This document shows positions 15,753 to 24,953 of a DNA stretch of 64,000 nucleotides, one piece after another. Positions within the stretch are counted from its first letter, which is position 1. Each line of letters begins with the position of its first letter. The translations under genes were made by a program, and so were the position numbers. This stretch comes from Phycisphaerales bacterium (GTDB lineage: Bacteria; Planctomycetota; Phycisphaerae; Phycisphaerales; SM1A02), in NCBI GenBank assembly GCA_009691705.1, contig SIAR01000003.1, positions 33,879 through 97,878 on the forward strand, in the 5' to 3' direction. The notes below the pieces were generated by a model. It was not told the origin of the DNA and did not search any database. It saw nothing but the letters and a program-made list of their open reading frames with translations.

Positions 15753-17093
15753 TTACTCAATACCACGGGGGATGCCGCCAGCAGGTCCGCTGTCGCGTCC
15801 ATCGCCTTGTCGCGAGATGGGGCGCTTGCCGCCCTTGCCATCGCCGCTGGTTGGTGCTGTCCCTGAGTTCAATGTTGGCGAGTCGCGCTCTGGCTTGCCT
15901 GGAATCATCGGGCGCATCGCATCGCTGGCGATCTTCGCCGCGCCTGGCAGGAGCAGCGCGAGTTCTGGCCCTACGATCGCCGCGATATCAGCGCGAAACT
16001 TCTCGTTCAGCGCGTCACGCTCTTCGTGCAGCGACTTGTAGGGATCGAGGTTGGGTTTGACTGCATTCGAAGACCCCTGATTCATCCTGCGCCGCGTCTC
16101 TTCACTCTGCTTCCTCGGTTCTTCGACGCGATGAGCGGCGGCGAGTCGGAGTTCAAGATCGTGATAGCTCACGACGTATGCAACTTCAAGCACATTCAAC
16201 TGATCGATCTGTCCGGGGGATAGTCCAGGAAGTTCACGCGCTGCCGCAACTAACGGAATCATCGGACTTGGACGAAAAACCGATGGGTATGCCGCCGTGA
16301 ACGCGCGGGTGCGAAAGGTCGATCCCCACTGCGCGCCATACGCGACTGCGAGCAACTCGATCGACTGCTCCTGAAGATCGCGAAGTGCAACGCGCTTCGC
16401 CACAATCATCTCGAGTTGGTCCAATCCAGTTGCGAAGTCTTGAGCGACCATCGCATCCTTAATCTTGTCTTGTGATGTAGCCATCTGAGTCGCTCGCGCG
16501 ATGAGTGCCGCATCTAGACCGATCTCATACTGCTCGAGCGCTTCCTTAGCCGCGAGCAATGTTTCTGGGGGAATCTCACAATCGCGTGAAACCTGCCGCA
16601 GATCGATACTTTCGCCGCTCAGAACTCCGCGTGGCAACTCTTTCTCGCGGCGCATCGCCCGTTCAAGTTGTGGCCAGTGCCCCTGCTGCTCGTCGCTGAG
16701 AACCGAACGCAGATTGTCGATGAACCGCTGCTTGAGTCTCGCCTTCTCATGCGACCACTCACCGATTGGTTTCATAATCACGGCAATAGCACCTTGCTCG
16801 CCAGCGCCAAGAATCTGATCCTTCAGTCCCTTCATGCGGTCGCGCAGACCATCAACGCCAACAGTGAAATCGCTCGTGTAGTCGCCAAGGAGACTCTCAA
16901 CCGTTGGCTGCTGCCACTCTTCGAGACCGAGGTAGTCAACGAAGAGCGTCATGTCGCGCTTGAGGTAGTCGGGCTGAAATGCCTCAACGAATCCCGCCTG
17001 CAATCCCATCTGGGCATGGCTTGGCAATACGCAACAAAGCAGCGTGACGAGGGCGGCAACGAACGAGGCACAAAAAAACGAAAGTCGTGTCAT
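15753..17093 (-). CDS. Secreted alpha-helical protein of unknown function, first gene of the T2SS-linked run
   Basis: Signal peptide MTRLSFFCASFVAALVTLLCCVLPSHAQ; 3-nt gap to gspE. Confidence 0.7.
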   Translation of the reverse strand: MTRLSFFCASFVAALVTLLCCVLPSHAQMGLQAGFVEAFQPDYLKRDMTLFVDYLGLEEWQQPTVESLLGDYTSDFTVGVDGLRDRMKGLKDQILGAGEQGAIAVIMKPIGEWSHEKARLKQRFIDNLRSVLSDEQQGHWPQLERAMRREKELPRGVLSGESIDLRQVSRDCEIPPETLLAAKEALEQYEIGLDAALIARATQMATSQDKIKDAMVAQDFATGLDQLEMIVAKRVALRDLQEQSIELLAVAYGAQWGSTFRTRAFTAAYPSVFRPSPMIPLVAAARELPGLSPGQIDQLNVLEVAYVVSYHDLELRLAAAHRVEEPRKQSEETRRRMNQGSSNAVKPNLDPYKSLHEERDALNEKFRADIAAIVGPELALLLPGAAKIASDAMRPMIPGKPERDSPTLNSGTAPTSGDGKGGKRPISRQGDGRDSGPAGGIPRGIE

Positions 17094-20476: not shown

Positions 20477-20947
20477 TTATTCGACTTTGCCGCCACTGGT
20501 GTCGTACACCCACGCATCTGCCGCACGCGTGTACGAAAGCACTTCGCCACTGCCAAAAAATAGCGCGAGCTCACGGGTGGCAGCTTCGGGGCTGTCAGAA
20601 CCGTGGACGAGATTGAATGAGTTTGAGATGCCGAAGTCGCCGCGGATCGTTCCGGCGGCAGCCTTCGATCCAAACGTCGCACCCATGAGGTTGCGGCAAA
20701 CCGCAATCGCGCCAACGCCTCGCAGCGCCAGAACCACCACAGGTTCACTTGTCATGAATCGAACCAGTCCTGCGTAAAAGGGCTTGGAAGCGTGATCCTT
20801 GTAATGCTCGGCGGCAAGAGCATCAGCGATCTTGGTCAACTTCATCCCGACCACTTGCAATCCCTTTTGTTCGAACCGGGCAGTGATTGCGCCGATGAGT
20901 CCCCGTTGAACTGCATCTGGCTTGAGAATGATGAGGGTGGTTTCCAT
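20477..20947 (-). CDS. ndk: Nucleoside diphosphate kinase
   Basis: METTLIILKPDAVQRGLIG; GTIRGDF; NLVHGSDSPEAATRELALFF. Confidence 0.94.
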   Translation of the reverse strand: METTLIILKPDAVQRGLIGAITARFEQKGLQVVGMKLTKIADALAAEHYKDHASKPFYAGLVRFMTSEPVVVLALRGVGAIAVCRNLMGATFGSKAAAGTIRGDFGISNSFNLVHGSDSPEAATRELALFFGSGEVLSYTRAADAWVYDTSGGKVE

Positions 20948-21056: not shown

Positions 21057-22877
21057 ATGGAAGCCCCCAACAAAACTGCATCCAAGAAGACATCTCCGCG
21101 GAGACAAGGCGCGACCGCTGAGGAGATGTCTGACCAACAGCGTGAAATCTCGGTCAGCGAGTTCTTCGCGAAAAACCGCCATCTCCTGGGATTCGACAAC
21201 CCGCGCAAGGCGCTCTTGACTGCCGTGAAAGAGGCGGTCGACAACGCGCTTGACGCGTGTGAAGAGGCGTGCATCCTTCCAGACATTCACATCGAGTTGC
21301 TTCAGAGATCTGAAACGCGCTTCAAGGTCACCGTGCGCGACAATGGCCCCGGCATCGTTCGCAAGCAGATCGAAAATATTTTTGGACGGCTGCTCTACGG
21401 CTCGAAGTTTCATCGTCTGAAGATGAGTCGGGGCCAGCAGGGAATCGGCATTTCTGCAGCGGGCATGTACGGGCTCATGACGACGGGTCAGCCCGTGCTG
21501 ATCATCTCAAAGACGCACAAGAAAAAACCAGCGGTTGAAGTCTTGCTCAAGATGGACACCTCGAAGAATCGCGCCGACGTTGTGAGCGAAACAGAGCATC
21601 CTGAAGATGATGGACTTTTTCAGGATGGTCACGGAACACAAGTTTCGATCGAGCTTGAGGGTCGCTACCAAACCGGACGACAGTCGGTTGATGAATATCT
21701 CGATCAAACCGCCATTGCCAATCCTCATGCGCGCTTCACATTTGTGACTCCGACTAATGAGACCATTGAGTTCAACCGAGGAACGAATGAACTTCCTCCG
21801 GAAGCGAAAGAGATCTTGCCCCATCCAAGAGGGATCGAACTGGGCACGCTCATTCAGATGATCGAGCGCACCGACCGTTCCCAGATCGGATCATTTTTGC
21901 AGGAAGAGTTTTCGCGGGTGTCGTCAGCGGTTGCGAAGGAGATCTGTGAAAGGGCGGGAATCACGAATCGCACCTGGGTGAAGGCGATCGGGCACAAAGA
22001 AGCCGAGGCGATCTACAAGGCAATTCAAGAGGTTCGCATCACGGCGCCTCAAACCGATTGCCTCGTGCCTATCGGTACAAAGGCCCTTCTCTCGGGACTG
22101 CTCAAAGAGGTCAAGGCAGAGTTTTTCACAGCGTGCACGCGTCCCGCGGATGTCTACCGGGGCAACCCGTTCTTGATCGAAGTCGGTCTTGCATTTGGAG
22201 GGGAACTTCCAAAGGATGAACTCATCCGTGTGATTCGATTCGCCAATCGTGTGCCACTGCTCTACCAGCAGGCGGCGTGTGCCTCGTTCAAGGCAGTGCT
22301 CGAAACGAGTTGGAAGAACTACGGCGTCTCGCAATCGCGCGGATCGCTGCCCGATGGTCCCATCGTCGTCATGGTGCACATGGCGAGTGTGTGGGTTCCA
22401 TTCACGAGCGAATCGAAAGAGGCTATCGCTGACTACGACGAGATCAGAAAGGAGATGAAGCTCGCCCTGCAAGAGGTGGGGCGCAAACTTGGCATGTACG
22501 TGCGCCGCCGGCAGCGCATGCGAAACGAAGGCGAGCGGCGAAGCATCTTTGAGCGGTACATCGGCGAAATCTCGCAAGCAACTGAGGCAATTACAGGTAC
22601 CCCGGCGCAGCGGATCTACGACGCTCTGCTGCGGGTCGCCCAGAGAAAAACTGAAGAGGCTGATGCGGTGCTCAACGACGAAGGCAAACGTGTCAAAGAC
22701 TCCGATCCCTTCAGAAAGGATGAGTCGGTCGTGATTCTCGCGGCGCGCACTCCAGCTGCGCCGATTGAAGATTCTGCGAGCGACACAGAAGAAGTAACCC
22801 AATCCCCATCGGCAGGGACACTCTTCGGAGAGGATGAGTCTCTCTCGAAAGCATCCAAGGGTCGCAAGAAGAAATAA
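21057..22877 (+). CDS. top6B: DNA topoisomerase VI subunit B
   Basis: GHKL motifs EAVDNALDACEEA, DNGPGI, GQQGIGISA; transducer CLVPIGTKALLSGL, RFANRVPLLYQ, VPFTSESKEAIA. Confidence 0.95.
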   Translation: MEAPNKTASKKTSPRRQGATAEEMSDQQREISVSEFFAKNRHLLGFDNPRKALLTAVKEAVDNALDACEEACILPDIHIELLQRSETRFKVTVRDNGPGIVRKQIENIFGRLLYGSKFHRLKMSRGQQGIGISAAGMYGLMTTGQPVLIISKTHKKKPAVEVLLKMDTSKNRADVVSETEHPEDDGLFQDGHGTQVSIELEGRYQTGRQSVDEYLDQTAIANPHARFTFVTPTNETIEFNRGTNELPPEAKEILPHPRGIELGTLIQMIERTDRSQIGSFLQEEFSRVSSAVAKEICERAGITNRTWVKAIGHKEAEAIYKAIQEVRITAPQTDCLVPIGTKALLSGLLKEVKAEFFTACTRPADVYRGNPFLIEVGLAFGGELPKDELIRVIRFANRVPLLYQQAACASFKAVLETSWKNYGVSQSRGSLPDGPIVVMVHMASVWVPFTSESKEAIADYDEIRKEMKLALQEVGRKLGMYVRRRQRMRNEGERRSIFERYIGEISQATEAITGTPAQRIYDALLRVAQRKTEEADAVLNDEGKRVKDSDPFRKDESVVILAARTPAAPIEDSASDTEEVTQSPSAGTLFGEDESLSKASKGRKKK

Positions 22878-22888
22878 GGATCCCACCC

Positions 22889-24064
22889 ATGGCAAAGAAG
22901 TCCATCCGAGAAGAGTCATCAACGGCGAGCGAGGCCGCGCGGGCGCGTGAGAGTCGCATGATGGGTAGCCAAGGGACGCGCGACAAAACGCTTGCCAAGA
23001 TCGGCGAGTTGGGCAAATCGGTTGCGAAATCTGCGCTCGCAGAGTCCGATCCATTTGTCGACGTACCGACGCGCACGATGTCGAATACCACGTACAACGA
23101 GACGCGCCGACTCCTGCAAATGGGTGACGCAACACTGCGGCGCAATCTCTTCAATACTGGTCAAGCGCGCAAGTTCATGCAAACTGTCTTGCTCTCGAAG
23201 GGTTGCAAAGATCTTCTTGAAGCGAAGAAAACCCTCAGTTTGCGCGGTATGTATTACAAGAGCCTGCACACGATTGCGGGCACAAAGGAGAAGACATTTG
23301 ACGACCAAGAAGAGTCGGATGGCATTCTCGAAGACATCGAAGTTGCACTCGCGACACTGCGCGAAAACTTGCACCTCTTCGCGAAGAAGCGCGGAACGAT
23401 GGTGGGCAACATCACCGTCGTCGACAATGGCGATCCAATCGACTGTCGACGGATGGGAACTGGCGGGTATGCGATCCCCTCGATTTGTGAACCATCTGTA
23501 GTGCAGTTTGGAAAGTGCGAAGCGAAGTTTGTGTTGCATGTTGAAAAGGACACCGTCTGGAGTCGCTTCAACGAGGATCGTTTTTGGGAGAAGCACAACT
23601 GCATATTGACCGAGGGCAGCGGTCAACCGCCACGCGGCGTGCGTCGATTGCTCTACCGACTGAACAAGGAACTGGGACTCCCCGTCTACTGTTTGCTCGA
23701 TTGCGATCCGTGGGGGCACTACATCTACTCAGTGATCAAACAAGGTTCGATCAATCTCGCCTTCGAGAGCGAACGCATGGCGATTCCAGATGCAAAGTAT
23801 CTCGGCATCCGCTCGGCAGACTTTCTGCGGTGCGGTCTCTCGGATGATGTCAAAATCGCCCTGAACGATCGCGATATCGAGCGGGCGAAGCAGATCGCCG
23901 AGTATCCGTGGTTCATCAAGAAGAAGCACTGGCAGAAAGAGATTCAGTTGATGGTCAAGAACGGATTCAAGATGGAAGTTGAATCGCTCATCACCAAAGA
24001 CATTTCGTACGTGACTGAGGTGTACGTGCCCGAACGTATGAAGGCGAAGGATTGGATCGACTGA
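22889..24064 (+). CDS. top6A: DNA topoisomerase VI subunit A (Spo11-like)
   Basis: Catalytic Tyr motif SLRGMYY; Toprim VEKDTV and DCDPWGHYIYSVIKQGS; 11 nt after top6B. Confidence 0.95.
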   Translation: MAKKSIREESSTASEAARARESRMMGSQGTRDKTLAKIGELGKSVAKSALAESDPFVDVPTRTMSNTTYNETRRLLQMGDATLRRNLFNTGQARKFMQTVLLSKGCKDLLEAKKTLSLRGMYYKSLHTIAGTKEKTFDDQEESDGILEDIEVALATLRENLHLFAKKRGTMVGNITVVDNGDPIDCRRMGTGGYAIPSICEPSVVQFGKCEAKFVLHVEKDTVWSRFNEDRFWEKHNCILTEGSGQPPRGVRRLLYRLNKELGLPVYCLLDCDPWGHYIYSVIKQGSINLAFESERMAIPDAKYLGIRSADFLRCGLSDDVKIALNDRDIERAKQIAEYPWFIKKKHWQKEIQLMVKNGFKMEVESLITKDISYVTEVYVPERMKAKDWID

Positions 24065-24086: not shown

Positions 24087-24953
24087 TCACGACTGAGATT
24101 TGCTGTGACCCTGCGGAAGCAAGACCAAGAAGTCGCTTCCCTTGCCCATTTCGCTGAAAACGAGAATCGTCCCGCCATGTTCTTCGACGATTCTGCGAGT
24201 AACGGCGAGACCGAGTCCGCTGCCGCTCTTTCTGCTTGAAATGTAGGGGCGGAAGATCGCTTCACGTTCGGTAGCGGCGATGCCAGGGCCAGTGTCGATG
24301 ACATGGATGGCAACCTCAGGGGTCGATGTCTCGGTGTTCATCCTGTTCTCGACCCTCAGAATGAGTTCGCGGCGGGCGGGCGGGGGAGTTGCCTCCATCG
24401 CCTGAATCGAGTTGAGCATGAGGTTCAGAATCGCCTGCTTCAGAAGTCCTGCATCAACCTCCGCGTACACCGCAACTGCTGGCAGATCGGTGCGTAGGAG
24501 CACTCCGGCGAGCTCGGATTGTGGGTGCACGAAGTCACTGAGTTCTTCGATCAACTCGCGCACATCACGTTTCTCACGGTCGAGGTGCACCCGACCGGCG
24601 TAGCGCAAAAAGTCTTCGAGAATGTCCTTGAGTCGACTTGTCTCACGCGCAAGCGAATCGACGCGGCGCGTCAGTCGGGTCGATTCTTCTTCTGGGAGCG
24701 GCGCGTCGAGAATCCCTTCGCGCAGGAGCTGCGCGTTGAGCACCACGCTCGAGAGCGGATTCTTGATCTCGTGGGCGAGCCCGCTTGTCATTGCTCCAAG
24801 TTCGGCAAGTCGTTCGGCATTGGCGGCGCGTCGTTCTGCTGCCTGCGCACGCCTGTTTCGTCGATGGGAAACAACCAGCAAGAGAATCGCTCCCAGGGCA
24901 CTCCCAAGCGCAATGCCGACAAACAAGCCCGAGATGAATGGGGTAGGAATCAC
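24087..24953 (-). CDS. Sensor histidine kinase (HisKA + HATPase)
   Basis: LGAMTSGLAHEIKNPLSSV H-box; NLMLNSIQAMEA N-box; DTGPGIAATEREAIFRPY; GSGLGLAVTRRIVEEHGG. Confidence 0.9.
   Translation of the reverse strand: MIPTPFISGLFVGIALGSALGAILLLVVSHRRNRRAQAAERRAANAERLAELGAMTSGLAHEIKNPLSSVVLNAQLLREGILDAPLPEEESTRLTRRVDSLARETSRLKDILEDFLRYAGRVHLDREKRDVRELIEELSDFVHPQSELAGVLLRTDLPAVAVYAEVDAGLLKQAILNLMLNSIQAMEATPPPARRELILRVENRMNTETSTPEVAIHVIDTGPGIAATEREAIFRPYISSRKSGSGLGLAVTRRIVEEHGGTILVFSEMGKGSDFLVLLPQGHSKSQS

Follow-up and report, generated by a model that had tools for sequence, protein, structure and literature searches.

A complete DNA topoisomerase VI at an inherited locus in Phycisphaerales, with A and B subunits of apparently different histories

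The hallmarks of DNA topoisomerase VI (topo VI) are ATP-dependent decatenation and relaxation, and two-nucleotide overhangs. Its identity in planctomycetes is already published. Allen and Maxwell (2024, PMC11302465) describe topo VI in five families of planctomycetes that have gyrase but lack topo IV; the planctomycetes in their study are Pirellula, Lacipirellula, Thermogutta, Sedimentisphaera and Anaerohalosphaera. Bacterial Top6B is reported there to lack the Ig-like C-terminal domain, and triple sets of topo VI, gyrase and topo IV are stated to be confined to Pseudomonadota and Terrabacteria. The enzyme described here belongs to the same protein family and phylum, and it shares the gyrase without topo IV and the Top6B without an Ig-like domain. 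The text of PMC11302465 does not mention Phycisphaerales, and neither discordance between the A and B subunits nor exchange of topo VI and topo IV within an order was found in it. The additions to the published record are the near-universal syntenic occurrence of topo VI in one order, its exchange with topo IV within that order, the discordance between the A and B subunits, and the finding that some planctomycetes have a ParC-like gene in addition to topo VI.

Two archaeal enzymes are the closest solved relatives. Saccharolobus shibatae topo VI (2ZBK) supplies the closest Top6A (269 bits, about 41% identity, indels in common). Its Top6B is distant (287 bits versus 497 for Methanosarcina mazei; RGMYGLG versus RGQQGIG), and S. 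shibatae, unlike the present host, is without gyrase, as implied in PMC11302465. M. mazei topo VI (2Q2E, 9O0G) supplies the closest Top6B (48% identity) and comes from a host that also has gyrase. However, its Top6A is only about 33% identical to the one studied here, and its Top6B carries an Ig-like C-terminal domain. The gene pair analyzed here lies in a 64,000-nucleotide stretch of contig SIAR01000003.1 (the window). The host is a Phycisphaerales-type planctomycete known from a metagenome-assembled genome (MAG) of 1.99 Mb in 46 contigs that is 93% complete. Its named relatives are MAGs of the same type, the nearest of which is 96% identical (contig CAMBOV010000003.1).

The top6B-top6A gene pair

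Two plus-strand open reading frames encode the enzyme, Top6B (606 amino acids; window positions 21057–22877) and Top6A (391 amino acids; 22889–24064). The 11-nt spacer between them (22878–22888) has a GGA stretch right after the top6B stop codon that is a plausible ribosome-binding site for top6A. Both subunits score above the NCBIfam equivalog cut-offs for topo VI. Top6B matches NF003218 at 683.7 bits (cut-off 274) and TIGR01052 at 517.4 bits (cut-off 380.7), and Top6A matches NF003333 at 523.7 bits (cut-off 465). Pfam identifies GHKL ATPase, transducer, TP6A_N and TOP6A-Spo11_Toprim domains in the pair (PF02518/PF13589 and PF09239 in Top6B; PF04406, PF20768 and PF21180 in Top6A). Top6A is thus a separate protein with the winged-helix/CAP domain that bears the tyrosine and a Toprim domain. 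Top6B consists of the GHKL ATPase, H2TH region, transducer, a long C-terminal helix and a tail, and it aligns full-length and by fold to 2Q2E_B and 2ZBK_B through the H2TH region. Topo VI was the only enzyme among the sequence matches of either subunit to solved structures, and the best fold matches of the AlphaFold models (mean pLDDT of 89 for Top6A) were also topo VI. The tail of Top6B past the long helix is disordered in the model, with no Ig-like C-terminal domain.

The catalytic motifs do not vary in alignments of 23–32 relatives. The Top6B residues are Asn63, the N-box Mg/ATP residue (21243–21245); DNGPG at residues 95–99, the G1 box (21339–21353); GQQGIG at residues 126–131, the glycine loop of the ATP lid that is also found in M. 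mazei (21432–21449); and Lys454, the transducer switch lysine as placed by alignment (22416–22418). The Top6A residues are the catalytic Tyr123, equivalent to Tyr103 of Methanocaldococcus jannaschii and invariant in three alignments (23255–23257), together with Glu219 (23543–23545) and Asp271-x-Asp273 (23699–23707) of the Toprim domain. All of these codons are on the plus strand. These data confirm that the window encodes an intact, complete topo VI, with B before A, 11 nt apart and with its motifs preserved, as the first-pass annotation had proposed from the open reading frames. The same annotation credited Top6A with a basic N-terminal extension of roughly 60 residues, which proved too long. 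In the structure-sequence alignment, residues 37 and 50 correspond to residues 19 and 32 of the M. mazei and S. shibatae proteins, an offset of about 18 residues. The model is disordered over residues 1–26 (22889–22966, plus strand; pLDDT below 50) and has a confident helix over residues 27–50, which limits the extra segment to about 18–26 residues.

Related enzymes were considered and rejected. A Spo11/topo VIB-like identity is excluded by a B subunit with complete ATPase motifs and an H2TH region, and membership of Top6A in the Spo11 clade is excluded since Spo11 is only a distant fold match (18–19% identity). Topo VIII, a type IIB enzyme of free or integrated plasmids, is excluded by two full genes at topo VI equivalog scores, by a conserved chromosomal locus, and by scans that found no relative of Top6A on bacterial plasmids or in phages.

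Locus and distribution

Pfam assigns ordinary bacterial genes to both flanks of the pair, in agreement with the bacterial neighbourhood noted at first reading. The divergent neighbour is ndk (20477–20947, minus strand) and the convergent neighbour is a HisKA/HATPase sensor kinase (24087–24953, minus strand), and both are conserved. Most close relatives, down to about 65–75% Top6A identity, have the same succession of genes: sigma factor, ndk, top6B, top6A, sensor kinase, pnp, rpsO, carboxyltransferase. Because gene order is conserved in close relatives and the neighbours are ordinary bacterial genes, top6BA is an inherited chromosomal locus and not a recent import. The archaeal affinity of the protein family could suggest recent lateral import, a topo VIII or other mobile-element enzyme, or contamination of the MAG. 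This is very improbable and is refuted by a syntenic block common to dozens of relatives. The contig carries ordinary bacterial genes, A and B are separate genes with topo VI architecture, and the GC content of the locus (0.55) is near that of the window. A scan of phages gave zero matches, and a plasmid scan for Top6A returned haloarchaeal megaplasmids only. One of 2.9 million viral contigs matched (IMGVR_UViG_3300037657_000197). It carries a top6B-top6A pair of the alpha type defined below at 57–58% identity, and could be planctomycete DNA that was misfiled. The syntenic block also holds a conserved 446-residue protein with zero Pfam matches, encoded at 15753–17093 (minus strand) beside a T2SSE/PilB-type ATPase.

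Of the 201 genomes from the window's order, 142 have the TP6A_N domain, as do about half of those sampled across the phylum (189 of 392). Most of the negative genomes in the order (51 of 59) belong to a single family, f4, in which topo VI occurs in 0 of 51 genomes, compared to 142 of 150 in the rest of the order. The other eight negatives are scattered, have a single PF00521 match each, and may reflect assembly gaps. Top6B was also present in all 30 Top6A-bearing genomes checked. Top6B was absent within about 9 kb of Top6A in the four genomes of families f6–f8, from the same class, whose Top6A region was examined. Identity to the window Top6A is bimodal across the phylum. Sixty-four genomes are at 50% or above (alpha type, which includes the window) and 124 are at 37% or below (beta type), with none between among the matches listed; no family among these matches carries both types.

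Outside f4 the pair behaves as a core gene of the order, being vertically inherited, syntenic and nearly universal. The picture of a sparse, exotic import suggested by the first-pass annotation is therefore not sustained, given these counts and the syntenic block. That annotation also held that ubiquity with vertical inheritance in the phylum would overturn its reading. Such a pattern is largely what the order shows, but the phylum is patchy and has Top6A in two distant types. These data show that topo VI is a normal inherited gene pair within the order and patchy at the phylum level.

Partner enzymes and the role of topo VI

The type IIA genes were surveyed as well, a check that the first-pass annotation had suggested. 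The window genome has one GyrA, with the GyrA-box QSRGGKG, and one GyrB; ParC and ParE were not found in its assembly, which at 93% completeness could miss them in this one genome. Nearly all topo VI-positive relatives in the order likewise have no second type IIA set. Family f4, which is without topo VI, has at least two GyrA/ParC genes in all 33 genomes of at least 90% completeness. One copy carries the GyrA-box and the other is boxless in each of the seven f4 genomes checked, that is, GyrA plus ParC. In four of these seven, and also in a further f4 genome (G410), the boxless copy has a ParE-like gene no more than 20 kb away. Topo VI and topo IV substitute for one another inside a single order. 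Genomes of families f37, f20 and f72 that are without topo VI also combine GyrA with a boxless copy, indicating exchange inside other families. An in-place swap of top6BA for parCE in f4 is without support; ndk, pnp and rpsO are absent around ParC in eight f4 loci (stretches of up to 20 kb).

At least two type IIA A-subunits occur in 19 of 183 topo VI-positive genomes of the phylum versus 106 of 201 topo VI-negative genomes (Fisher p 9e-20, shared ancestry ignored). Because the Fisher statistic ignores shared ancestry, the switches seen repeatedly inside families are the stronger evidence. None of the alpha-type genomes sampled across the phylum carries more than one type IIA A-subunit. Six topo VI-positive genomes of the order sample have two PF00521 matches. 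Four of them look like one split gene, and in the other two (G480 and G522) the second match goes beyond that explanation. Mutual exclusivity with ParC/ParE thus holds for the alpha type and the window's order, except for the second matches in G480 and G522, and is not strict for beta-type planctomycetes. The beta-type families f63, f26, f32 and f71 combine topo VI and gyrase with a short ParC-like protein, a second PF00521 protein in which RYIE replaces the active-site RYTE and the catalytic tyrosine is kept. These families contradict the restriction of triple sets to Pseudomonadota and Terrabacteria (PMC11302465). Both topo VI and a second type IIA gene are missing from f29 and from most genomes of f39 and f49. 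Topo VI and topo IV are therefore not strictly interchangeable across the phylum, given beta-type families with both and families with neither.

Individual genomes illustrate these combinations. The ParC-like proteins of G100, G019, G203 and G025 (families f63, f26, f71 and f32; loci L244–L247) are 637–708 residues long, giving apparently three type II topoisomerases per genome. Genome G300 (loci L133 and L234) has two GyrA-box proteins and a beta-type topo VI in one planctomycete.

The window pair probably forms a functional A2B2 topo VI, a mosaic enzyme with an alpha-type A subunit, that serves as the chromosome decatenase, the part played by topo IV in most bacteria; we infer the activity, the role and the route to the mosaic. 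The role is suggested because the type II enzymes found in this genome are topo VI and gyrase alone, and topo IV occurs in the family without topo VI. On the established biochemistry of topo VI, Top6A would make a staggered double-strand break through Tyr123, with the metal held by Glu219, Asp271 and Asp273. ATP-driven dimerization of Top6B would capture a second duplex and drive its passage, so that the two-gate A2B2 enzyme could pass one duplex through another and resolve catenanes. Topo VI would in this way take on the usual bacterial job of topo IV, the decatenation of replicated chromosomes. Some planctomycete families appear to live on gyrase alone, and gyrase might decatenate here also, leaving topo VI to relax positive supercoils or make programmed breaks, a repurposing of the A fold for which Spo11 is a precedent. 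This division of labour is unlikely. The exchange of topo VI and topo IV in the order is clean, the B subunit has its full ATPase and transducer motifs, unlike the partners of Spo11, and the M. mazei enzyme acts preferentially as a decatenase (PMC8837201). This archaeal topo VI is also reported, as unpublished data, to complement an Escherichia coli parE-ts strain (PMC11302465). Planctomycetes offer a natural experiment on the role of bacterial topo VI, the question left by Allen and Maxwell (PMC11302465). The decatenase role is testable in cultured relatives because gyrase-bearing families of one order carry either topo VI or topo IV.

Histories of the A and B subunits

Alpha and beta Top6A are 29–39% identical to each other (about 34%), compared to 62–64% within the groups. 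Archaea were represented in these comparisons by both subunits of M. mazei and S. shibatae, the A subunit of M. jannaschii, and haloarchaeal proteins (two A, one B). Beta A is 56–60% identical to M. jannaschii A, and alpha A is nearest to S. shibatae A at about 41%. The Top6A tree joins alpha to S. shibatae (support 100/99), with alpha on a long stem, and beta to M. jannaschii (100/96). The AU test rejects a single clade of alpha and beta A (p 4e-6; p 0.03 without S. shibatae). The indels point the same way. In both alpha and S. shibatae A, an insert follows the catalytic tyrosine segment, one residue is deleted ahead of the MVG/VVG motif, the TPEGE-type insert is missing, and the DIERAK region is preceded by an additional segment. 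NCBIfam gives independent agreement. The best and second-best models are NF003333 and NF003336 for alpha A and the reverse for S. shibatae A, and the best model for both beta and M. jannaschii A is NF003337. The A types cannot be separated by fold similarity. The window Top6A has its best TM-score with DNA-bound M. mazei A and its highest identity in the fold comparison with S. shibatae A (39% versus 30%).

The Top6B subunits differ far less. Alpha and beta B are 45–58% identical (mean 53%), and identity within the groups is 60% and 57%. At a matched B identity of 0.50–0.55, A identity is 0.59 and 0.63 within the groups and 0.34 between them. The view that the A and B subunits have different histories is well supported because A identity collapses between the types and B identity barely falls. 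In the B trees, alpha B groups next to beta B from the class of the window genome (families f6–f8; support 92/72 and 93/91). A single beta B clade, however, withstands the test (p 0.29) in a set where archaeal B is represented by M. mazei, S. shibatae and one haloarchaeon. Judged by these sequence affinities, the window enzyme looks like a mosaic of an alpha A affiliated with Sulfolobus and a B of the general planctomycete, euryarchaeal-like kind.

Three histories could account for this pattern. We give not quite an even chance to a planctomycete ancestor that kept its resident Top6B but had its Top6A displaced by a TACK-like one, after which the hybrid operon would have spread between classes and one family would have swapped it for topo IV. 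The A and B subunits of planctomycetes might instead have descended together, with no separate acquisition of alpha A and very fast evolution of A on the alpha stem. That stem is long, the B tree unites alpha and beta B against the M. mazei and halophile proteins, and the AU rejection is weak once S. shibatae is left out. Fast evolution is nevertheless improbable. It does not fit an alpha A that is closer to S. shibatae A than to beta A (about 41% versus about 34%) and shares the indel states of S. shibatae, a beta A so close to M. jannaschii, the bimodal identity to the window A, or the NCBIfam pairing of alpha with the Sulfolobus model and of beta with the Methanocaldococcus model.

The third history has two whole-operon transfers, beta A and B from a Methanococcales-like donor and alpha A and B from another archaeon, for example DPANN or euryarchaeal, in which they were already mixed. 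It is a substantial possibility, tentatively held and somewhat short of even. Bacterial sequences are reported to form two clusters in the A tree and again in the B tree, the second of the A clusters lying close to DPANN and Euryarchaeota (PMC11302465), and the p of 0.29 for a single beta B clade, obtained without M. jannaschii B or DPANN sequences, is compatible with it. The best B tree, however, nests alpha B by the beta B of the window's class (93/91). In archaea, the tree of either subunit is reported to track taxonomy (PMC9348778), so a mismatched archaeal donor would itself be somewhat unexpected. If the discordance holds with denser sampling, the cleaving and ATPase subunits would be exchangeable between distant lineages and still cooperate, which would matter for understanding the A-B interface and how Spo11 arose.

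Top6B also varies locally within the phylum. An insert of about 200 nt splits the Top6B transducer match at four loci (L186–L189; families f72, f81 and f98) and looks like the extra alpha-helical bundle of Pirellula staleyi.
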